Of a stretch of DNA of 64,000 bases, positions 23,008-37,079 are shown one piece after another (positions within the stretch are counted from its first letter, which is position 1; each line of letters starts with the position of its first letter). This DNA comes from Pseudomonadota bacterium (GTDB lineage Bacteria > Myxococcota_A > UBA796 > GCA-2862545). The stretch is taken from NCBI GenBank assembly GCA_023954855.1, contig JAGSGY010000012.1, positions 1 to 64,000 of the forward strand, in the 5' to 3' direction. The notes under the pieces are model-generated. The model was not told the origin of the DNA, did not search any database, and was given only the letters and a program-made list of their open reading frames with translations. The position numbers and the translations under genes were made by a program.

Positions 23008-23062
23008 CGGTCCCGGCGGAATGAGTGAGGTTGCGACGGTTGACTCACCATTTGGAGATGCC

Positions 23063-24688
23063 ATGCGCACGCTGTCCGCCTTGACCCTACTCGCTCTCAT
23101 CGGCTGCGGTTCGGAGTCCGAATCCCGCCTCGACGCGCTCGAAGCGTCACTCGCCGCCCTCGAGACCGAAAACAGCAGCCTGCAAGAGCAGCTCACGGCA
23201 CTCAACGATGCGGATCTCGCTGCACGGCTTGCGCTCGCAGAGACCGCCATCGCAGAGCACGACCAGCGCCTTGACGACCTCGAAGCCGACATGCTCGATG
23301 TCGATGATCGCGTCGGAGACATCGAAGCGATCGGAAGTGCGGACCACGAGGACCGAATCACCGCCCTCGAAACGCTCACAACCGGGCACACCACCAGCAT
23401 CGCTGCGAACACGAGCGGGGTCGCGGCGAATGGCGCCATCATCGGCACCCACACGACGAATATCTCCACGCTGACCGGCGACGTCGGTGGACTGCAGACG
23501 ACCAGCACGGCCCACGACGGACGCCTGACGGCGCTCGAGAGCACCGTGGGTGGCAACACCACGGCGATCAGCGCGCTGCAGTCCTCTTCGACGACAATGG
23601 GCACCACCCTGGCCACCGTTCAGACGGACCTCACGGCTGTCGCGAGTGAAGTCACATCCCTGGGGACCGATCTCGCCACCGCACAGAGCGACATCACCAC
23701 CCTTCAGACCGACTTGGGTGCGGCCGAGACGGACATCGCCACGCTTCAGACGGATCTGGGCGCAGCCGAGAGCGACATCACCTCGCTGCAGACGGACCTC
23801 GGCACGGCGCAGACCGACATCGCCACGCTGCAGACAGACCTTGGCTCCGCCGAGACCGACATCGGCGATCTGCAGACGACGTCGACTGCGAACGCCGAGG
23901 ACATTGCCGCGGCAGAGGTGGACATCGCGAGCAACCAGAGCGCCAGCAGCACAAACGCGACCGACATCGGCAACATGCAGACGGATCTGAACGGCGTCCA
24001 GGACAAGACCGCGTCGATGACGGCGAGCACCATCGGCGGCAAGCCTTCGGTGGTCTTCTCTGGCGTCAACGTGTGGGTGCAAGACGGCACCGGCAGCACG
24101 GACTGCGGCGGACAGACCTGCGGTGGCCTCGGAAACCTAATCGTCGGCTACAACGAGAACGGGAGCTTCGCGACCGGCTCGCACTCCGTCGCTGTTGGTA
24201 CCGCCCACGACTGGTCGAGCTTCGGCGGCCTCCTCGCGGGACTCAATCATCAGGTCGATGCGCAGTACGGAACGGCAGTCGGCGGCTCAAGCCACACCGT
24301 CACCGACAGCGGAGCGTCGGCAATTGGTGGAATTGGGGGCACCGCCTCCAACCCCCTCGCAACAACTCTTGGGGGCAGCGGTGCCATCGCCAGCGCAAGA
24401 AATGCGACTGCCATCGGTGGACGCGACAACGTCGCATCTGGCCTGAGCGCGGTGAGTGTCGGGGGCCGCGACAACGATGCTACGGGTGACTACAGCATGG
24501 TTGCAGGTGGACAGCTCAGCACCTCGGCCGGTGACTACGCGCTCACGGCAGGAGGCGTGGACAACCACAGCGACGGAAAGTGGGCCACCTGTGCGGCCGG
24601 ATCGGCCAACTACGCCACCACAGACGGCTCGGCCATCTTCGGCGGCACGAGCCAGACCGCGACTGCACCGTGGGAAGTCCTTCCCTAG
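23063..24688 (+). CDS. Lipoprotein with long coiled-coil stalk and YadA-head-like C-terminal repeats
   Basis: Encodes 541 residues. The ATG at 23063 has GGAGAT upstream and gives a lipoprotein signal (LALIGC). Residues about 20-300 are heptad-rich coiled coil, including five tandem 14-residue units (202-271). Residues about 325-541 hold Gly/Ala-rich repeats such as HSVAVGTAHDW, ATAIGGRDNVASG and SVSVGGRDNDATG-like units, the pattern of the left-handed beta-roll head of trimeric autotransporter adhesins and of phage tail-fibre tips. The polarity is reversed relative to YadA: a lipid anchor at the N-terminus, then stalk, then head, with no C-terminal barrel. It would form a trimeric fibre projecting from the membrane. 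Function is probably adhesion; partner unknown. Confidence 0.8.
   Translation: MRTLSALTLLALIGCGSESESRLDALEASLAALETENSSLQEQLTALNDADLAARLALAETAIAEHDQRLDDLEADMLDVDDRVGDIEAIGSADHEDRITALETLTTGHTTSIAANTSGVAANGAIIGTHTTNISTLTGDVGGLQTTSTAHDGRLTALESTVGGNTTAISALQSSSTTMGTTLATVQTDLTAVASEVTSLGTDLATAQSDITTLQTDLGAAETDIATLQTDLGAAESDITSLQTDLGTAQTDIATLQTDLGSAETDIGDLQTTSTANAEDIAAAEVDIASNQSASSTNATDIGNMQTDLNGVQDKTASMTASTIGGKPSVVFSGVNVWVQDGTGSTDCGGQTCGGLGNLIVGYNENGSFATGSHSVAVGTAHDWSSFGGLLAGLNHQVDAQYGTAVGGSSHTVTDSGASAIGGIGGTASNPLATTLGGSGAIASARNATAIGGRDNVASGLSAVSVGGRDNDATGDYSMVAGGQLSTSAGDYALTAGGVDNHSDGKWATCAAGSANYATTDGSAIFGGTSQTATAPWEVLP
23666..23875 (+). repeat. Five tandem 42-bp coding units (14-residue double heptads)
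   Basis: Units read TDLxxAxxDIxxLQ five times in a row (TDLATAQSDITTLQ, TDLGAAETDIATLQ, TDLGAAESDITSLQ, TDLGTAQTDIATLQ, TDLGSAETDIGDLQ). Each equals two heptads, so copy-number change by recombination would lengthen or shorten the stalk in frame. Confidence 0.9.
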
Positions 24689-24793: not shown

Positions 24794-25750
24794 ATGATTT
24801 TTCGCACTCTCGCGGTGCTGGCGCTGTTTGCGCCGGCTGCCGCGCTCGCCGACTCTTGCCCGACCGCCACGACGGTGGCCGAGCTCGACGAGACCCTAAG
24901 CGGCGCCGAGGCTTCGTACCGCTCGGTCGACCTCGACGGATTCAACCTTGCGGTCGACTCGGCGGTGTTCCTGATCCCGTGCCTGGGCGAGCGTCTGACC
25001 CCCACGGTGGCGGCACACTTTCACCGCATGCAGGGACTCAGCGCGGTCATTCGCCGCAAGAATGACAGAGCGGCGCAGGCCTTCACCTCGGCCAAGGCCG
25101 CGGACCCAAGCTACGCCTGGCCCGACGAGCTGATTCCGCCCGGACACATCATCCGCACCACCTACGACGACGCCGACCCCGAGGCCTCGAAGTACGCGAC
25201 ACCCGCCCCTCCCGTCGCCGGAGCATTGATCTTCGACGGCACTCCCTCGGATCGCCACCCCACCTCGCGGCCGACGGTGTTCCAGCTCACCGATGCGGAC
25301 GGCGTCGTTCTGAAGACGTTCCTGGTTCGCGCCGGAGCCGACCTGCCCGAGTACGAGGCCAAGGTGGTTCCCGTCGCAGCCCCAGAGCCTGCAGAGCCAG
25401 TCGCTGTAGGCACCGAGGAACCGAAGCCCGTGAAGACCGGGGATTCGTCGGGCGCCGTCGCACTGCCTGCAGCCATCACCGGAGGCGCGGTTGCCCTCGG
25501 CGCCGGATCGGCCGTGCTCTACTTTGGCCCCACCAAGTCCGCGTTCAGTGAGTACCAGACCATGCGCAGCAGCGGCGACTACGCCGGAGCCGACACGCAC
25601 TTCGACGAGAAAGTCGTACCGCCCCGCACCACCGCTCAAGTGCTCGCCGGGGCTTCCATCGTGGCGCTCGGCGTCAGCGGCTACCTCTGGTCCCAAGCGG
25701 TCAGCGTCAGCCCCACCCCGAACGGCCTGCTGGTCATGGGGAGCTTCTAG
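24794..25750 (+). CDS. Hypothetical exported protein, partner of the giant surface protein gene
   Basis: Encodes 318 residues; ATG with GGGGAA upstream. Signal peptide ends AALADS. A helical region (about 30-120, with two Cys) is TPR-like in spacing and is followed by a proline/glutamate linker (APEPAEPVAVGTEEPKPVK). Two hydrophobic segments (about 223-250 and 285-305) suggest a membrane hairpin near the C-terminus. I do not recognise a named family. Its stop codon is immediately followed by the ATG of the 2423-residue protein, so they are translated together, which points to a shared job such as export, anchoring or assembly. Confidence 0.75.
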   Translation: MIFRTLAVLALFAPAAALADSCPTATTVAELDETLSGAEASYRSVDLDGFNLAVDSAVFLIPCLGERLTPTVAAHFHRMQGLSAVIRRKNDRAAQAFTSAKAADPSYAWPDELIPPGHIIRTTYDDADPEASKYATPAPPVAGALIFDGTPSDRHPTSRPTVFQLTDADGVVLKTFLVRAGADLPEYEAKVVPVAAPEPAEPVAVGTEEPKPVKTGDSSGAVALPAAITGGAVALGAGSAVLYFGPTKSAFSEYQTMRSSGDYAGADTHFDEKVVPPRTTAQVLAGASIVALGVSGYLWSQAVSVSPTPNGLLVMGSF

Positions 25751-28700
25751 ATGTGGCTTCTACTTCTCGCCAACGCATTCGCCTGCCCCGCCGGCGGGCG
25801 CGCCTACTGCAATGAAGGTCCAAGCGAGATCAGCTCTGACAACCAATGGGCCGCGCACCCTGCCTGCAGCAGTGGGCTCACGCCGAGCCCGGACTACACC
25901 GCCGCGCTCGGTCTGTTTGGAGAGGGCAACGATGTGCACGTCATCGCCGAAGCGGGCTACACCATGGTCTACCCCGTCGAGGATACGTGCGGCCAGACCC
26001 AGGTCGCCTGCGCGACCGATGGCAACGCCGAGTGGTCCGGTGCCGACTCGACCGGTACGCTCTGGGCCGCCGTCGAGTTCCCCGGCGGCACCGCGTCCAC
26101 TCTAGACGTCGAGGTCGTCTGCGAGACCGAGCTCACGACACACGATGTTGAGCTCAACTGCACCGACGACGGCTCGAGCTTCGAGTACAACAGCGCGAAC
26201 ACCAGCATCTACAACGACATCGAGGGCTATGAATGTGGAGGCCAGGCCCCGTTCTATGGCCTCGGCGATGAGTGGATCGGCAAGTTCGTCGCACCCACCA
26301 CGGGCATCGTCACCTTCACCGTGACACCGGAGAACGACGACATCGACGTATTCGTGCTCAACAGCTCCGGGCAGACCTTCGACTGCCTGTCGAGCAACGT
26401 CGGCGGGATGGGAGAGCGGAGCCTGACGGTGACGGCCTCCCAGGCCCAGACCCTGTACCTGGTGGTCGAGAGCTACGGTAGCGGCAGCGACTTCAGCGTC
26501 GCGATCAGCGAGGGCGCCGCGCACGCCTGCAAAGAGGACTGCGACAACAACGTCGACGACAACGGCAACAACAAGACCGACTGCGACGAGACGAACTTCT
26601 GTGACAAGGCCTCGCAGTGCTACGACGACTGCACCCTCGCCGATGACGACGGGGACGGCGAGGTCGATGAGTCCTGCGAGGACCGCTGCGACGGCATCGA
26701 CAACGACGGCGACGGCGAGACCGATGAAGGATACGCCGACGAGGATGCGGACGGCGTGAACGACTGCCTCGACGTCTGTCCAGGCGCGGACGACCTCGAA
26801 GACCAAGACTTCGACGGCTTCCCCGACGAGTGCGACTTCTGCCCGCGTACCTCCACGGTGAACAACGACGACCTCGACGAAGACGGCGTGGGCGATGCCT
26901 GCGACAACTGCATCGACGTGCCCAACCAGGTCCAGTTCGACTCCGACACCGACGGTGTTGGCAACGCCTGCGATCTCTGCGAGGGCTTCCCCGACTCGGC
27001 AGACCTCGACAGCGACGGCATCCCGAATGGTTGCGACAACTGCCCCAGTGTCGGCAACAGTGACCAGTTCGACAACGACTTCGATGGCCTCGGCAACGCC
27101 TGCGACAACTGCGACGACGTGCAGAACGAAGGTCAGGAGAACGCCGACGGCGACGGGTTCGGCGACGCATGCGACCCGTGTACCGACACCGACAACGACG
27201 GTCTCGGCAACGCCGGCTATGCCGCCAACACCTGCGACGAGGACAACTGCCCAGACGAGGCGAACATCCAGCAGAACGACCCCGACAATGACGGCTGGCC
27301 CAACACCTGCGACAACTGCCCCAACGACGCCAACAACTCGCAGACCGACGCGGACTTCGACGGTGTGGGCGACACCTGCGACAACTGCCCGGCCGAGGCG
27401 AACGACACCCAGGTCGACTCGGACGGCGACCTCGTCGGTGACCTCTGCGACAACTGCGCAGTCGCAAACCCAAGCCAAGACGACGACGACAGCGACGGAC
27501 AGGGCAACGCCTGTGACACCTGCACCGACTTCGACGTGTTCGTCTCAGGTGTGCTTGGCGATGGCTACGCCGACGTCGTCGTGCAGGGCACCACGACCTG
27601 CCCGACCGACACCTGCGACGGCTACGACGACGCCATCGACCTCGACGGCGACGGCATCCCCGACGACTGCGACAACTGTCCCGTCAGCAACGCCGACCAA
27701 GACGACACAGACGGCGACGGGATTGGCGATGCCTGCGACCCCGAGAGCTGCACCGACGGCGCCGACAACGATGGGGACGGCCTCACCGATTGCCACGATG
27801 CGGACTGTGCGAGCGACGATGCCTGTGCGCTCACCTGCTCACTCGCCAACGACAGCCTGAGCTGCGGCCAGGTCGCCAGCGGCACCGTAGACACGAGCTC
27901 CTTCGAGGACCACTGCGGCGTGTCAGGGCTCACGGGCCCGGACCACACGATGTCCCTGCCCACCCTAGCGAATGGGCGTACCCTCGTCGTCGACGCGGCG
28001 AGCACGGCGGCGTCGAATGTGTACATCACGGAAGACAACTGCTGGGAGTACGCGTCTTGCGCGGCGCACAGCACGAACAACACCGGCGTGAGTCACCTCA
28101 CGCTCACCTCTGACGGCAGCACCAGCTACTACGCCACCATCGACAGCGTCACCGGTAGTGCGTTCACTGGCGTGATCGGAATCGGCTGCCCCACTGACGA
28201 CTGCTCGAGCGACGTGGATGGCTCGCTGACTTGCTCCACCCCCATCACGGCGAGCACTGCAGGCGGCGGCAACAACAACGACTACTACGCGAACTCCGGC
28301 ACCATTGCGCATGCAAAGCGTTTTCAGCCCGGAAACGAGCGCATCTACACCCTCGAACCGCAGCAGAGCGGCACCATTCAGGTCGGCATCGCCGGCATGT
28401 CCGTCGACCTCGATCTCTTCGTCCTCGAAGACGCATGCCACTACGACTCCGTCATCGCGCAGTCGGTGGCCGTCGGCACCGCCGCTGAGAGCGTCAGCTT
28501 TACCGTCGACGCCGGCAAGACCTACTACGTGGTCGTCGAGGGCCGTGGAGGCGACTCGAGCTTCGCCTTGGCCGTCGCCTCTGCAGGAAGCGGTGCCTGT
28601 CCCGAGGACTGCGATGACGGCGCCGACAACGACGGCTCCAACGGTATCGACTGCGTCGACCCCATCTGCAGCGGCACGCCCGAGTGCGGCGCATGTGACG

Positions 28701-31700
28701 TCGACGGAGACGGCTTCATCGCCGTGGCCTGCGGCGGCACCGACTGCGATGACTCCACAACCAGCACCGACACCGACACCGACGGCATCCCCAACGAGTG
28801 CGACAACTGCGAGACCGTAGCCAACCCAGGCCAAGAAGACCCCGACGGCGACGATGTCGGCAGCGCCTGCGACAACTGCCCCGACGCCTCGAACGGCACT
28901 CAGTCCGACCTCGACGGCGACGCGACCGCCACCAGCAATGGCGATGCCTGTGACGTCTGCACCGACACCGACAACGATGGCCACTACGACGACTACGTCG
29001 AGGGCGTCACGACCTGTGACCCAGACATCTGCCCGGGTGTGGACGACACCATCGACGACGACAACGACGGCTCACCGGACTGCATCGACAACTGCGTGGG
29101 CCTCGCCAACGGCGACCAGGCCGACGGTGACGGCGACGGCGTGGGCGACAGCTGTGACAACTGTTCGGGCGACCCGAACGCCGACCAAGCCGACCCCGAC
29201 GGTGACGGCGTGGGCTCGGTCTGCGACATCTGCCCCGACCACTCGGATGCGGATCAGACCGACAGCGATCAATCGGTGAGCAGCGACACGAAGGGCGATG
29301 CCTGCGACCCCTGCACCGACACCGACAATGACGGCTACGCCGACATCAACGTCTCGGGCATCACCACCTGCGCGCTCGACACCTGCCCCGCCGGCGATGA
29401 CGATCTCGACGGCGACAGCGACGGCGAGGCTGATGCTTGTGACAACTGCCCATCGGCACCGAACGAAGCACAGACCAACTCCGACGGCGACACCTATGGC
29501 GACGCCTGTGACAACTGCCCCTCCGACGACAACGAGGCGCAGACCAACAGCGACAGCGATCTGTACGGCGACGCCTGCGACAACTGTCCCGACGACACCA
29601 ACGCCAGCCAGGACGACACCGACGGCGACGACATCGGCGACACCTGTGACCCGTGCACCGATACGGACGGCGACGGATACGGCAACAGCGGGTACACCAA
29701 CGACGGCTGCGAGACCGACAACTGCCCCAACGTCTCCAACGTCGACCAAGAAGACAACGACAACGACGGCATCGGCGATGCCTGCGACACGGAAGAGTGC
29801 GACGGCGTCGACAACGACGGCGACGGCGCGACCGACGAGGGCTTCGACGACATCGACGGCGACAGCACCGCAGACTGTGTGGACACCTGCGTCGACACCG
29901 ATGGCGACGGCAAGGGACAGCTCGGCGACGACTGTGGCGTCGACAACTGCCCGACCACGGCAAACGCCGACCAGGCCGACGAAGATGGCGACGCCATCGG
30001 CGATGCCTGCGACACCTGCACCGACAGCGACGGCGACACCTGGGGCGACAACGGCTTCACCATCACGGGCTGCACCGGCAGCACGACGGTCGCCGACAAC
30101 TGCACCGACGACGTGAACGTCGACCAGGCCGACACCGACACCGACGGAACGGGCGATGCCTGCGACACCGAAGAGTGTGACGGCGTCGACAACGACGGCG
30201 ACGGACAGGTCGACCAGGGATTCCCCGACGCCGACAATGACGGCACCAAGGACTGTGTGGACACCTGCACCGACACCGACGGCGACAGCTTCGGAAACAC
30301 GGGCTTCGCAGCCAACACCTGTGCCGAAGACAACTGCTCTCTCATCGCCAATGGTGGCCAGGAAGATGCCGACAACGACGGCCTGGGCGACGTCTGCGAC
30401 ACCTGCACCGATATCGACGGCGACGGACGAGGCGACCCGGGCTTCGGCAACAACACCTGCGCCCTGGACAACTGCCCTGCCATCGCCAATGTCGACCAAA
30501 GCGACGTCGACGACGACAACATCGGCGACGTGTGCGACACCTGCACCGACCCCGACCTCGACGGCTACGGCAACGCCGGTCTCGACCTGTCGACCTGCAC
30601 GTCGACCACGGTCCCCGACAATTGCCCGAACACCGACAACGCTGACCAATCCGACCTCGACGCCGATGGCGACGGCGACCTCTGCGACACCTGCACCGAC
30701 CCCGACAACGACACGTACGGAAGCCCTGGGTTGGCGCTGACAGGATGCACGGGCTCGGCGACAGACGCCGACAACTGCCCCGACGACACCAACGTGGACC
30801 AGGCCGACGCCGATACCGACGGGCAGGGCGATGTCTGCGACTCTGGCGAAGACTGCGACGGCATTGACAACGACGGCGACGGCGACACGGATGAGGGCCT
30901 GCCCGACGTCGACAATGACGGCATCTGCGACGAGCGCGACACCTGCATCGATGTCGACAACGACAACTGGGGCACCGGATCGGATCTCTCGGGCTGTACG
31001 GGCTCGACGACCGTCGTGGACAACTGCCCGACCACCAGCAACGCCAGCCAGACGAACACCGATGGTGATGAGAAGGGTGATGCCTGTGACACCTGCGTCG
31101 ATACCGACGAGGACGGCTTCGGTGACCCTGGCTTTGCCGGCAACCTCTGCGCCCTCGACAACTGCGCCTTCGAGGCCAACCGCGACCAAGAAGACGCCGA
31201 CAGCGACCAGATCGGTGATGCCTGCGACACCTGCACCGATGTCGACGGCGATGACTACGGCGACCCCGCCTACTTCCTGACCGACTGCACCAGCACGACT
31301 GATGGCGACAACTGCCTGACGGTGGCGAACGCCGACCAGGCCGACCTCGATGGCGACGGCGAAGGCGATGCCTGCGACAGCTGCACCGACTCCGACGGCG
31401 ACGGCTACGGAAACCCGGGGCTAGCCGCAAGCACCTGCACCCCCGACAACTGCCCTGATCTCGCGAACATCGGTCAAGACGACCGCGACGTCGACGGTAT
31501 TGGCGACAGCTGCGACACCTGCACCGACTCCGATGGTGACGGCGTCGGCGACCCGACCTTCGACCAGTCGAGCTGCACCACCCCCGACATCGACGACAAC
31601 TGCCCCGCCGCCGCCAACAGCGACCAAGCCGATGCAGACAGCGACAGCGTGGGCGACGCCTGCGACACCTGTACCGACACCGACACCGACGGCTTCGCAG

Positions 31701-33022
31701 ACCCTGGCTACCCCGCATCGACCTGCGACACCGACAACTGTCCTGACGTGATCAACGAGCAGGAAGACGCCGACAACAACGGCGTTGGTGATGCCTGCGA
31801 CACCGAGAACACCTGCTCGGACCGCATCGACAACGACGGCGACGGTCTCGTCGACTGCGACGATGATGAGTGCGTGGATAGTGGCGTGTGCGACTGCCCG
31901 ATCATCGACCTTCAGATGACCTGCGGCGACTTCATCGCCTACACGGTCGACGTGAACGACTACGGCGTGAACAGCGCCTGCTCGACCGTTCCGCAACCCG
32001 GTCTGGACGTGGTGGCCGAAGTCAGTGCGCCCTCCGGCTCTGAAGTCGTCGTTCTCGCCGAGGGCCCGACCGCGACCCACGACCTGTCGATCTTCGCCAA
32101 CGCCGGAGGCTGTGGCACAAGTGGCAACGCGCAGTGCCTCGACAGCAGCGAGTCGCACGCCGCGCTTCAGGAAGTCACCTGGACCTCGGACGGCACCCCT
32201 GCCCTCGTCACCGTCGACGACCTCGCCTCGGGCGCGTACAACGTCGACCTCACCGTCGCCTGCCCTGCGGCCTGCGAAGCCATCGACATCGAGGCGGACC
32301 TCGACTGCACGGTCGACCTGCAAGGCAGCACGTCGGGAGGCTCTGCAACCACGGCGCTCGACTACTACGAGTGTGGTGCAGCCATTGGGGGCGCCGACCG
32401 CCTTCAGCCCCATCCCGAGCAGATCTACAGCTTCACTCCGCGCCGCGATGGCGTGGTGACCGCCCGAATCAGCAACGCGAGCGAGCCGCACTCGCTGGCA
32501 CTCCTCGACTCGGCTTGCGATGGGCGCAACTGTCTGAACTGGGCTGACGGAGGCAGCGACACCACCTCGGTGACCTTCTTCGGAAGCCAAGGCTCCACCT
32601 ACCACATCGTCGTGGAGGCGAGCACCGGCACCACCGGCACCTTCGACATCGAGCTGGTCACGAACGGCGCGGGCTGCCCGGAAGACTGCGACGACGGCCT
32701 CGACAACGACCTCGACGGCGACTTCGACATGGATGATGCCGACTGCCAGGAGGCGGACGCCGACACCGACGCAGACGCCGACACCGACGCCGACACCGAC
32801 GCGGACACTGACTCCGACACCGATGCGGACACCGACGCCGACACCGATGCGGACTCCGACACCGATGCAGACACCTCCGACACTTCGGACAGCAGCGGCC
32901 AGGACAGTTCGGCGTACCCCGAGCGAGGCATCTGCAGCTGCTCGACCCAGACGCCCGCACAGGCGGCATGGGTGTTGCTCGCTCTACTCGCCATTCCGGC
33001 CCGCCGTCGGCGTAGCGCCTAG
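25751..33022 (+). CDS. Giant TSP3/MopE-repeat surface protein with triplicated beta-sandwich pairs and MYXO-CTERM-like tail
   Basis: Encodes 2423 residues; ATG directly abuts the previous stop, GGGGAG upstream. A short signal peptide (MWLLLLANAFA) precedes three copies of a two-module block at about 12-255, 694-950 and 2043-2317. In each block the first module is Cys-bracketed and the second is like bacterial pre-peptidase C-terminal (PPC) domains (e.g. NERIYTLEPQQSG, EQIYSFTPRRDG). Between the blocks lie two acidic arrays (about 260-690 and 955-2040) of TSP3/MopE-type units such as DNCPxxxNxDQxDxDxDGxGDACD, expected to bind calcium and form stiff rods with disulfides. A DTDAD-type linker (about 2336-2377) leads to CSC, a hydrophobic helix and RRRR. 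Probably a calcium-dependent cell-surface adhesin or stalk, sorted by a myxosortase not in this window. Confidence 0.9.
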   Translation: MWLLLLANAFACPAGGRAYCNEGPSEISSDNQWAAHPACSSGLTPSPDYTAALGLFGEGNDVHVIAEAGYTMVYPVEDTCGQTQVACATDGNAEWSGADSTGTLWAAVEFPGGTASTLDVEVVCETELTTHDVELNCTDDGSSFEYNSANTSIYNDIEGYECGGQAPFYGLGDEWIGKFVAPTTGIVTFTVTPENDDIDVFVLNSSGQTFDCLSSNVGGMGERSLTVTASQAQTLYLVVESYGSGSDFSVAISEGAAHACKEDCDNNVDDNGNNKTDCDETNFCDKASQCYDDCTLADDDGDGEVDESCEDRCDGIDNDGDGETDEGYADEDADGVNDCLDVCPGADDLEDQDFDGFPDECDFCPRTSTVNNDDLDEDGVGDACDNCIDVPNQVQFDSDTDGVGNACDLCEGFPDSADLDSDGIPNGCDNCPSVGNSDQFDNDFDGLGNACDNCDDVQNEGQENADGDGFGDACDPCTDTDNDGLGNAGYAANTCDEDNCPDEANIQQNDPDNDGWPNTCDNCPNDANNSQTDADFDGVGDTCDNCPAEANDTQVDSDGDLVGDLCDNCAVANPSQDDDDSDGQGNACDTCTDFDVFVSGVLGDGYADVVVQGTTTCPTDTCDGYDDAIDLDGDGIPDDCDNCPVSNADQDDTDGDGIGDACDPESCTDGADNDGDGLTDCHDADCASDDACALTCSLANDSLSCGQVASGTVDTSSFEDHCGVSGLTGPDHTMSLPTLANGRTLVVDAASTAASNVYITEDNCWEYASCAAHSTNNTGVSHLTLTSDGSTSYYATIDSVTGSAFTGVIGIGCPTDDCSSDVDGSLTCSTPITASTAGGGNNNDYYANSGTIAHAKRFQPGNERIYTLEPQQSGTIQVGIAGMSVDLDLFVLEDACHYDSVIAQSVAVGTAAESVSFTVDAGKTYYVVVEGRGGDSSFALAVASAGSGACPEDCDDGADNDGSNGIDCVDPICSGTPECGACDVDGDGFIAVACGGTDCDDSTTSTDTDTDGIPNECDNCETVANPGQEDPDGDDVGSACDNCPDASNGTQSDLDGDATATSNGDACDVCTDTDNDGHYDDYVEGVTTCDPDICPGVDDTIDDDNDGSPDCIDNCVGLANGDQADGDGDGVGDSCDNCSGDPNADQADPDGDGVGSVCDICPDHSDADQTDSDQSVSSDTKGDACDPCTDTDNDGYADINVSGITTCALDTCPAGDDDLDGDSDGEADACDNCPSAPNEAQTNSDGDTYGDACDNCPSDDNEAQTNSDSDLYGDACDNCPDDTNASQDDTDGDDIGDTCDPCTDTDGDGYGNSGYTNDGCETDNCPNVSNVDQEDNDNDGIGDACDTEECDGVDNDGDGATDEGFDDIDGDSTADCVDTCVDTDGDGKGQLGDDCGVDNCPTTANADQADEDGDAIGDACDTCTDSDGDTWGDNGFTITGCTGSTTVADNCTDDVNVDQADTDTDGTGDACDTEECDGVDNDGDGQVDQGFPDADNDGTKDCVDTCTDTDGDSFGNTGFAANTCAEDNCSLIANGGQEDADNDGLGDVCDTCTDIDGDGRGDPGFGNNTCALDNCPAIANVDQSDVDDDNIGDVCDTCTDPDLDGYGNAGLDLSTCTSTTVPDNCPNTDNADQSDLDADGDGDLCDTCTDPDNDTYGSPGLALTGCTGSATDADNCPDDTNVDQADADTDGQGDVCDSGEDCDGIDNDGDGDTDEGLPDVDNDGICDERDTCIDVDNDNWGTGSDLSGCTGSTTVVDNCPTTSNASQTNTDGDEKGDACDTCVDTDEDGFGDPGFAGNLCALDNCAFEANRDQEDADSDQIGDACDTCTDVDGDDYGDPAYFLTDCTSTTDGDNCLTVANADQADLDGDGEGDACDSCTDSDGDGYGNPGLAASTCTPDNCPDLANIGQDDRDVDGIGDSCDTCTDSDGDGVGDPTFDQSSCTTPDIDDNCPAAANSDQADADSDSVGDACDTCTDTDTDGFADPGYPASTCDTDNCPDVINEQEDADNNGVGDACDTENTCSDRIDNDGDGLVDCDDDECVDSGVCDCPIIDLQMTCGDFIAYTVDVNDYGVNSACSTVPQPGLDVVAEVSAPSGSEVVVLAEGPTATHDLSIFANAGGCGTSGNAQCLDSSESHAALQEVTWTSDGTPALVTVDDLASGAYNVDLTVACPAACEAIDIEADLDCTVDLQGSTSGGSATTALDYYECGAAIGGADRLQPHPEQIYSFTPRRDGVVTARISNASEPHSLALLDSACDGRNCLNWADGGSDTTSVTFFGSQGSTYHIVVEASTGTTGTFDIELVTNGAGCPEDCDDGLDNDLDGDFDMDDADCQEADADTDADADTDADTDADTDSDTDADTDADTDADSDTDADTSDTSDSSGQDSSAYPERGICSCSTQTPAQAAWVLLALLAIPARRRRSA
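26540..27800 (+). repeat. First Asp-rich TSP3/MopE array (approximate limits)
   Basis: Repeated coding units contain GACAACTGC (DNC) and GGCGATGCCTGCGAC-like (GDACD) segments at a spacing of roughly 70-80 bases. This is a protein repeat with codon-level homogeneity, not a CRISPR array. Confidence 0.85.
28610..31860 (+). repeat. Second, longer Asp-rich TSP3/MopE array (approximate limits)
   Basis: The same unit type recurs over about 3.2 kb, with insertions of CTDTDxDGxGxxGF units and several MopE-like CDGVDNDGDGxxDEG units. Near-identical units (e.g. around 29.46-29.60 kb) indicate recent internal duplication. Confidence 0.85.
32753..32885 (+). repeat. DTDAD-type low-complexity linker
   Basis: Alternating GAC/GCC/ACC codons encode Asp-Thr-Asp-Ala repeats for about 40 residues, just before the C-terminal sorting tail. 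It is a flexible acidic spacer, like the SD repeats before Gram-positive sorting signals. Confidence 0.9.
32933..33019 (+). other. C-terminal MYXO-CTERM-like sorting tail
   Basis: The last 29 residues read CSC, a short linker, a hydrophobic helix (AAWVLLALLAIPA), then RRRR. This is the tripartite layout of myxosortase-processed proteins in Myxococcota. Confidence 0.8.
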
Positions 33023-35333: not shown

Positions 35334-35441
35334 GCCGCAATGTACCCGAGCCCACGAGGGTGCGGGGTTCATTCCGATGATCGGCACACGATGCACACCT
35401 GGGATAGTCTGGGCGTGCGTAGAACCCCAGGCAAGGACCTC

Positions 35442-37079
35442 ATGGAGCTAGATCCCGGAACGGTCATGGACCGCTACACCATCGACTCGCAGCTCGGCGA
35501 GGGTGGAATGGCGATCGTCTACAAGGTCCGTCACAACCAGTTGGGCACCTGGCACGCGCTGAAGATCCTGACGATGTCGTCGCGCTCGATCCGTGAGCGG
35601 CTGCTGCAAGAGGGCCGGGTTCAGGCCGCGCTGCGTCACCCGAACATCGTGGCGGTCACCGACGTCATTACCATCCAGGGCGCCCCCGGCTTGGTGATGG
35701 AGTACATCGCCGGCCCCTCACTCGAAGACCTGCTCCAGAAGACCAAGCTCACGTTGCCGCAGGCCGAGTCACTCGCTCGCGGCATCATCGCTGGCGTCAA
35801 GGCCGCCCATGACCGTGGCCTGATTCACCGCGACCTCAAGCCAGCCAACGTGCTGCTCGACATCACCGACTCGGGCCTGAATCCCAAGGTCACGGACTTC
35901 GGGCTCTCGAAGATCGTCAGCGGCGATTCGGGCATGTCGAAGACACGCTCGGGCGTCGCGATGGGCACGCCGTCGTACATGTCCCCAGAGCAGATCCGGT
36001 CCTCGAAGGACGTGGACCATCGCACCGACGTCTTCGCGCTCGGAGCCCTACTCTACGACGTAGTCTGCAACCAGCAGGCCTTCCCGGGCGACGACCTGCT
36101 CGCCATCTTCTCGAAGGTCACCTCTGGCGACTTCGTGCCCCCGCGTGAGCTGGTCCCTGACCTTCCCGAGCGCGTCGAGAAGGCCATTCTCGGCGCCCTC
36201 GAGACCGACGTCGACAAGCGCATCCCAGACTGCGGCACCCTGCTCGCCGTGCTCGCGGGTCAAGAAGCACCCGCCGCCACCGACGTCACCTCGAGCCTGG
36301 CAAGCTCCGGACCCTGGACCGGCGAGTTCATCTCGTCGGCTCGCTCGCTGAGCACCGCCTCGAACGAGAGCTTCGCCGACATCGTCTCCGGACGGGCTGC
36401 CGAGGCCGCCGCAGCCTCCTCACTCGCGAGCTCGAGCCCATCAAGCGACACCTTTATGTGGGGAGACGCCTCCGAAGAGGTCCCGAAAGGGGCAGCCCCT
36501 TCCTCCAAGAGCGGCGCGTCGATGTCCGGCAAAGGCGCCAAGGCAGGCGCCGCCCTCGTGCTTCTTGGACTGGCGGTCGGGCTCATGGGCATCGTCGGGG
36601 TCGGAGGCCTGTACGCCAGCGGCGTCTTCTCAGAGGCCCAAGAAGTTGCGACTCTCGACACGCCCGAAGTCACTCCAGAGCCGACGGTCGTGCCGAAGCC
36701 CGACCCCACCCCCGAGCCAGAGCCCACGCCGGAACCGGAACCCACACCTGAGCCGGAACCCGCCGTGCCAGCGCCAGCGCCAGCGCCGGTCGCCGCACCG
36801 CGTCCTCGGCCCGCCCCGGCACCGGTTCGGCCCAAGCCCCCGCCGGCCCCCACCATGAAGGCAGGACACGGCATCGTGCGGCTCACCGGCGACACCCTCG
36901 GCGTCTACTTGATCCCGGACGGTAAGCGGTCATTGGTTCGCCCCGGCGAGGTTCCCGCGGGTACCTACCAGATCTCGCAGCGCGTCGACGACGCCTACAA
37001 CCAGCTCGGCAGCATCACCATTGCAGCGGGCGAGACGAAGACGCTCAACTGCAACGCGATGATGATGATCTGCCGCTAG
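35442..37079 (+). CDS. Hanks-type Ser/Thr protein kinase with TM helix and Pro-rich extracytoplasmic tail
   Basis: Encodes 545 residues from the ATG at 35442 (AAGGA upstream). The cytosolic kinase domain (about 10-270) is complete: GEGGMAIVYKV glycine loop, K41 in HALKIL, HRDLKPANVL with D131, DFGLSK, and GTPSYMSPEQI. A linker rich in Ser/Ala leads to one membrane helix (about 367-393). Outside lies a TPEPEP-repeat proline-rich segment, then a small beta domain (about 470-545) that ends in two Cys (LNCNAMMMICR) and resembles PEGA modules. Such kinases sense envelope signals and phosphorylate cytosolic targets. The convergent Kelch gene ends 6 bases downstream. Confidence 0.95.
   Translation: MELDPGTVMDRYTIDSQLGEGGMAIVYKVRHNQLGTWHALKILTMSSRSIRERLLQEGRVQAALRHPNIVAVTDVITIQGAPGLVMEYIAGPSLEDLLQKTKLTLPQAESLARGIIAGVKAAHDRGLIHRDLKPANVLLDITDSGLNPKVTDFGLSKIVSGDSGMSKTRSGVAMGTPSYMSPEQIRSSKDVDHRTDVFALGALLYDVVCNQQAFPGDDLLAIFSKVTSGDFVPPRELVPDLPERVEKAILGALETDVDKRIPDCGTLLAVLAGQEAPAATDVTSSLASSGPWTGEFISSARSLSTASNESFADIVSGRAAEAAAASSLASSSPSSDTFMWGDASEEVPKGAAPSSKSGASMSGKGAKAGAALVLLGLAVGLMGIVGVGGLYASGVFSEAQEVATLDTPEVTPEPTVVPKPDPTPEPEPTPEPEPTPEPEPAVPAPAPAPVAAPRPRPAPAPVRPKPPPAPTMKAGHGIVRLTGDTLGVYLIPDGKRSLVRPGEVPAGTYQISQRVDDAYNQLGSITIAAGETKTLNCNAMMMICR

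Follow-up and report, generated by a model that had tools for sequence, protein, structure and literature searches.

The window described here is the whole stretch of DNA that was analysed, 64,000 nucleotides of contig JAGSGY010000012.1 (GenBank assembly GCA_023954855.1), and at positions 25751–33022 of its forward strand it contains a single intact reading frame encoding a protein of 2,423 amino acids which we refer to as the giant. This frame directly follows the gene for a smaller exported protein, referred to here as U, and the giant itself consists of three blocks (A, B and C) separated by two long arrays and ends in a predicted sorting tail. The features are as follows, with the evidence for each in brackets.

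24794–25750, forward strand: gene U, 318 aa, exported, two C-terminal hydrophobic stretches (TAG/ATG abutment with the giant; sister identity)
25751–25783, forward strand: predicted short Sec-type signal peptide MWLLLLANAFA, n-region without Lys or Arg, cut before Cys12 (sequence)
25784–26530, forward strand: block A, residues 12–260, tandem PPC-like pair at the N-terminal tip, fastest-diverging (BLASTP; AF2; Z 11.1 to 5iku)
26531–27826, forward strand: array 1, residues 261–692, TSP3 units, 40 Cys, units of acidic double-disulfide type at both ends (Pfam TSP_3; COMP; segmentation)
27827–28600, forward strand: block B, residues 693–950, tandem PPC-like pair in the middle (Pfam PPC below the cut-off; AF2; Z 12.0 to 3jqw and 5iku)
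28601–31885, forward strand: array 2, residues 951–2045, TSP3 units, 93 Cys, three internal 'CDGxDNDGDG' units (periodicity; segmentation)
31886–32677, forward strand: block C, residues 2046–2309, tandem PPC-like pair, predicted membrane-proximal, slowest-diverging (BLASTP to block B, 3e-24)
32678–32914, forward strand: unit of acidic double-disulfide type followed by a low-complexity Asp/Thr/Ala linker, residues 2310–2388 (sequence)
32915–33022, forward strand: predicted MYXO-CTERM sorting tail with CSC motif, hydrophobic helix, Arg cluster and stop (TIGR03901)
35340–37079, forward strand: Ser/Thr kinase with a C-terminal extracytoplasmic domain, possible partner with a weak link to the giant (Pkinase 4.5e-44; domain alignment)

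Three tandem PPC-like pairs in one reading frame

A profile built from the blocks finds exactly three copies in the giant, at residues 9–260, 693–950 and 2046–2309, in close agreement with the initial annotation which had placed three homologous blocks at 12–255, 694–950 and 2043–2317. Each is about 255 residues long and they occupy the start, middle and end of the protein. The relationship is visible in plain BLASTP comparisons made with neither profile nor iteration (B–C E = 3e-24, A–B 1.6e-10 and A–C 6e-9), with each alignment spanning both modules of the block, and values between 1e-9 and 1e-24 rule out an explanation of the blocks as chance or low-complexity likeness. The strand order suggested earlier is also borne out, with the SPDYT/GPDHT/PGLDV and GDEWI/GNERIY/HPEQIY strands falling in matching alignment columns. 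A frame error or assembly artefact can be ruled out as well, as two sister genes with 60–62% identity are collinear with the giant over its full length.

Each block had been described as a Cys-bracketed first module followed by a PPC-like second module. Two modules are indeed present and the second is PPC-like, but the first is not a separate kind of domain, since the two modules of a block are homologous to each other (hhalign probability 97.5%, E = 5.8e-12) and agree in strand order, which rules out two different module types per block. As both modules resemble the beta-sandwiches of PPC and collagen-binding domains, what the giant has is a tandem PPC-like pair in each of its three blocks. 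In the AlphaFold model of block B (pLDDT 86.7) the two halves each contain about eight strands, arranged in the same order, and the best structure matches of this model are the ColG tandem 5iku and the ColH collagen-binding domain 3jqw, both with Z 12.0, the latter with an rmsd of 2.3 over 104 residues. Block A, the most divergent of the three, was modelled with a pLDDT of 77.1 (mostly 55–75 in module 1 and mostly above 85 in module 2) and has the same ColG tandem collagen-binding domain as its best match (Z 11.1). Structure prediction, which might have given the blocks unrelated folds, thus places 5iku best or joint best for both A and B. It should be noted that the rmsd of the blocks to 5iku is large (15–17) and that single domains fit at 2–3, so that the large value most likely reflects an inter-domain angle that differs or was not predicted by the models.

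The Pfam PPC family (PF04151, cut-off 25.9 bits) is not reached by the whole protein (19.6 bits, residues 865–931 in block B) or by block B alone (23.8 bits), though a PPC match is found in nine of 14 aligned blocks at E ≤ 0.1 (best 3.1e-10). Given the agreement of the fold and of these aligned blocks, we use the name PPC-like for the sub-threshold blocks of the window. A search of solved-structure sequences with the block profile returned only weak matches, among them the PPC chains of collagenases and metalloproteases. The blocks resemble ColG s3a–s3b (5iku) and PF04151 in being a tandem beta-sandwich pair (Z 11–12 for blocks A and B), but differ in having only 10–13% identity, no attached protease and an extra Cys bracket. 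A PPC segment of one bacterium binds collagen (PMC6168687); however, a modelled fold match to collagen-binding domains does not imply that the giant has collagen, or indeed anything, as a ligand.

Arrays, sister genes and the pattern of divergence

The arrays joining the blocks measure 432 and 1,095 residues (earlier estimates were about 430 and 1090). Their assignment to the TSP3 type holds, with Pfam TSP_3 (PF02412) scoring 31.2 bits against a cut-off of 25 over 14 stretches, and array 1 matching the TSP3 region of COMP (3fby, E = 1.4e-30) and thrombospondin-2 (1.6e-20), but the arrays are not made of TSP3 units only, as they also include acidic double-disulfide or 'CDGxDNDxDG' units. Segmentation places units of the acidic double-disulfide type on the flanks of the blocks and three internal 'CDGxDNDGDG' units in array 2, and the repeats follow a 23-residue register in array 1 and a composite 46-residue period in array 2. 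The giant shares with the thrombospondins and COMP the same Asp/Cys motif and 23-residue register, but has far longer arrays (432 and 1,095 residues), interruptions of the acidic double-disulfide type, and PPC-like domains between them. In the solved structures of thrombospondins, the TSP3 array forms a compact wrap around calcium. By analogy with the TSP3 family the arrays of the giant probably bind calcium, and to call them rods, as had been done, is not justified by the sequence.

The giant has 501 Asp (about 20% of its residues), 10 Lys and a formal net charge of –559, and all of the giants found here fall between about –530 and –560. Together with the many Asp-rich TSP3 and MopE-type proteins encoded in the same genome, this charge would suit a cell-surface or matrix calcium store or shield which cross-links matrix polysaccharide and has no specific partner. 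We consider this highly improbable, as a plain acidic polymer needs neither 170 conserved Cys and a conserved unit number nor three fixed domain pairs.

The NCBIfam equivalog model for MtsC (NF047638) scores 358.7 bits on the giant, just above its cut-off of 350, but this is the sum over 16 partial stretches of which the best covers profile positions 66–266 of 428. As the cut-off is passed by adding repeat stretches, and no single collinear match covers most of the 428-position model, we do not file the giant as MtsC. In Myxococcus xanthus the protein to which this model gives its name is a MYXO-CTERM TSP3 protein for cell-cell cohesion (PMC11980579), and the giant resembles it in having TSP3 repeats and a MYXO-CTERM tail but is more than five times the length of the NF047638 profile and has three PPC-like pairs.

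Searching other genomes for the same architecture, as had been proposed, located it in three genes of a single genus. A sister-species genome of the same genus (G001) has two full-length copies with 62% and 60% identity to the giant, both with three blocks, one in a gene neighbourhood like that of the window and the other elsewhere as part of a paralogous second cassette. In a sample of 379 genomes of the phylum (Myxococcota), complemented by an order-level search, the block profile was found at E ≤ 1e-35 in eight of the 379 and only these three ORFs have three copies. Each part of the giant is already known (TSP3 repeats, MYXO-CTERM tails and PPC-like pairs) and what is new is the three-block arrangement, of which, in keeping with the initial annotation, we found no description in the freely readable literature searched.

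The other full-block proteins we examined contain a single block, which is usually at the N-terminus and precedes a long acidic array, and a MYXO-CTERM-like tail is visible in most of them. These single-block relatives (L031, L032, L120, two in L030, L122, L123 and L124) share the N-terminal PPC-like pair and long acidic array with the giant, but have one block and one array each and none has a middle or basal block. We also note, in the sister genome, two giant ORFs lying side by side, both with long TSP3-type arrays (L029, 1319–9280 and 9319–15270, with 2,654 and 1,984 codons and about 40 bases apart), where the full block was found in the second ORF only, and three ORFs with three to four PPC-like modules in tandem and no arrays between them (L038 2252–3349, L121 1819–5520 and L125 1–2265).

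A tree of 16 blocks places A, B and C each in one clade across the three proteins with full support. This indicates that the triplication and layout arose before the three genes separated, though the long branches make it unsafe to say in what order A, B and C and the single blocks diverged. The arrays have hardly changed in length since (432, 427 and 426 residues for array 1, and 1095, 1086 and 1085 for array 2), with short indels only and no whole stalk unit gained or lost. Each of the three proteins has exactly 170 Cys and all are common to them, with 169 in shared alignment columns and one, in block A, displaced by two columns. The TSP3 Cys and Asp motif is kept in the arrays, and all 133 array Cys are common to the three proteins (40/40 in array 1 and 93/93 in array 2). 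In each of the three pairwise comparisons the identity of the blocks is lowest at the tip, intermediate in the middle and highest at the base (38, 34 and 41% for A; 53, 49 and 56% for B; 66, 59 and 75% for C), with the differences amounting to 5.6–7.9 standard errors between A and C and about 3.4 between A and B.

We compared this with the single-block proteins. Paralogues at 57–58% identity differ by the gain or loss of stretches whose lengths are multiples of 32 residues, but one pair with 68% identity has kept its array and 69 shared Cys. The conserved array length of the giants is therefore notable but not unique, and any claim to uniqueness is weakened accordingly.

The pattern of divergence is consistent with a contact region at the far end that changes quickly on a support that is closely conserved, although the faster divergence of block A may reflect relaxed constraint and not recognition. 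The main rival to an adhesin role for the giant gives the blocks a structural or secretory task instead of a binding one: they would cap and separate the arrays for folding and passage through the type II secretion system (T2SS), and perhaps dock side by side. PPC segments belong to secreted proteases and some are removed on maturation (PMC3327674), which also counts against the adhesin reading, and the blocks of the giant are flanked by the same units of acidic double-disulfide type and include a strongly conserved block C nearest to the membrane. However, the single block of the relatives is usually N-terminal and not a regularly spaced cap, and a part that served folding alone would not usually diverge as fast as the outer block of the giants does; on balance we judge a structural or secretory role to be unlikely.

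Predicted export and anchoring, and the neighbouring gene U

All three giants have a signal peptide without Lys or Arg at its start and a Cys immediately after it; the orthologues begin with MLWLSLLLAQSVQA and MLSLLLALVNPAAA, and in both Cys directly follows the predicted cut as it does in the giant. This residue is also the conserved first Cys of the block itself, so that its presence can be explained without N-terminal lipidation, which is nevertheless possible.

The C-terminus consists, in order, of a Thr/Asp linker, a CSC motif, a hydrophobic helix and ARRRRSA, and the MYXO-CTERM model TIGR03901 (cut-off 20 bits) scores 27.9 bits on it in the genome search and 19.9 bits with hmmscan. The genome has 44 MYXO-CTERM tails (none were found in 14 control genomes), and the Asp/Thr/Ala type of linker recurs in dozens of its other ORFs. 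It also encodes a GspD T2SS secretin (476 against a cut-off of 351) and a CPBP protease bearing the myxosortase core (Mrt_core, 126.2 bits against a cut-off of 100). In M. xanthus the myxosortase MrtX cleaves MYXO-CTERM tails once they have been lipidated (a predicted step), T2SS carries the proteins to the surface, and the majority of these proteins are predicted adhesins or hydrolases (PMC11980579). From the sorting tail and this known biology we predict that the giant is exported to the outer surface and anchored there by lipid.

U and the giant appear from the sequence to be translationally coupled, with a TAG/ATG abutment in the window and a TGATG overlap in both sister cassettes. We considered whether readthrough of the single TAG might fuse U to the giant in frame, but this is ruled out as a conserved feature since the TGATG overlap puts the sister genes in different frames. 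U has 61% and 35% identity to the two sister copies and no match in Pfam or NCBIfam, and no U gene was found beside the single-block proteins among the loci searched. The family is large: genomes throughout the order each encode many members, exported proteins of around 300 residues (loci L100–L119). In 16 of the 20 U-family loci fetched, a Ser/Thr kinase gene follows U at –19 to +4 bases, and some of the remaining loci have a kinase or kinase tail nearby. The U-coupled kinases mostly share a small C-terminal extracytoplasmic domain with two Cys, and a domain of this type also ends the kinase at 35340–37079 (Pkinase 4.5e-44) and kinases in both sister loci.

The giant could on this evidence be the surface arm of a contact-sensing unit, in which binding by the blocks would be passed to U and from U to a Ser/Thr kinase, adding signalling to the adhesin reading. 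U and the giant overlap or abut in all three loci, U-family genes elsewhere are directly coupled to such kinases, and a kinase with the same C-terminal domain lies near the giant in the window and in both sister loci. However, the genome has 141 kinase-domain matches, or about one per 43 kb, so that a kinase within 10 kb is expected at roughly one-third of places, and a kinase beside the giant is weak evidence for signalling where it might have seemed strong; the direct coupling of U to kinases elsewhere is the stronger fact. Furthermore, where a giant is present it is the giant, and not the kinase, to which U is coupled, and the partnership is guessed from gene order. We regard a sensing role as distinctly unlikely, and the more elaborate version, a ruler for cell contact in which calcium-set arrays of conserved length, locked by disulfides, would hold the three pairs at fixed heights over the outer membrane, the fast-evolving tip would set partner specificity and U would report engagement to the Ser/Thr kinase, as very unlikely.

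Several other features of these neighbourhoods are worth recording. Several U genes also abut genes for large secreted Asp-rich (MopE-like), VWA-like or FG-GAP-like surface proteins (L100, L111 and L113), hinting at a recurring neighbourhood of kinase, U and surface protein. In the window, 23021–24688 encodes a predicted lipoprotein with a long coiled coil of approximately 14-residue repeats and a C-terminal YadA-head-like repeat region, with a 43% identical copy at the syntenic place in L027. At locus L028 (4469–4515) the 3' end of the giant gene and a convergent kinase gene overlap by about 45 bases.

A probable surface adhesin with a fast-diverging tip

We propose that the giant is probably an adhesin or recognition protein of the outer surface of this Myxococcota bacterium, calcium-dependent, clamped by disulfides, anchored by lipid and with a fast-diverging tip. 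It would be exported by Sec and then retained at the inner membrane through its MYXO-CTERM tail, where the invariant Cys of the tail would be lipidated and the tail cut by myxosortase, before crossing the outer membrane by type II secretion to remain lipid-anchored with its N-terminus outermost. The TSP3 arrays would fold around calcium and, clamped by disulfides, hold the three PPC-like pairs at fixed distances. The outermost pair A may then form the variable interface to a partner, which could be other cells, prey, or matrix polysaccharide or protein, and the middle and basal pairs may be further binding points or lateral or anchoring domains.

Adhesion, and with it the existence of a ligand, is suggested by the domain types and by analogy with MtsC and other MYXO-CTERM proteins. 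The giant would also work like TraA of M. xanthus, which has a variable recognition domain, a Cys-rich stalk and a MYXO-CTERM anchor (PMC12045341), although the domains and repeats are different and no TraB-type partner was noticed adjoining the giant. Beyond the possible relaxed constraint on block A and the maturation-linked PPC-type appendages of proteases already considered, the net charge of –559 also fits a matrix protein that gathers calcium and to that extent speaks against an adhesin.

The U family is of interest as an envelope component which has no name in Pfam or NCBIfam and is elsewhere coupled to Ser/Thr kinases, and the giant, at 2,423 residues, is a very large MYXO-CTERM client with which the exit of folded giants through the T2SS could be tested. 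Bacterial TSP3 arrays are usually seen as filler stalks; in these three proteins array length, unit number and every Cys have been kept through about 40% divergence while the outer head has changed fastest, and this makes the distance between heads a testable property.
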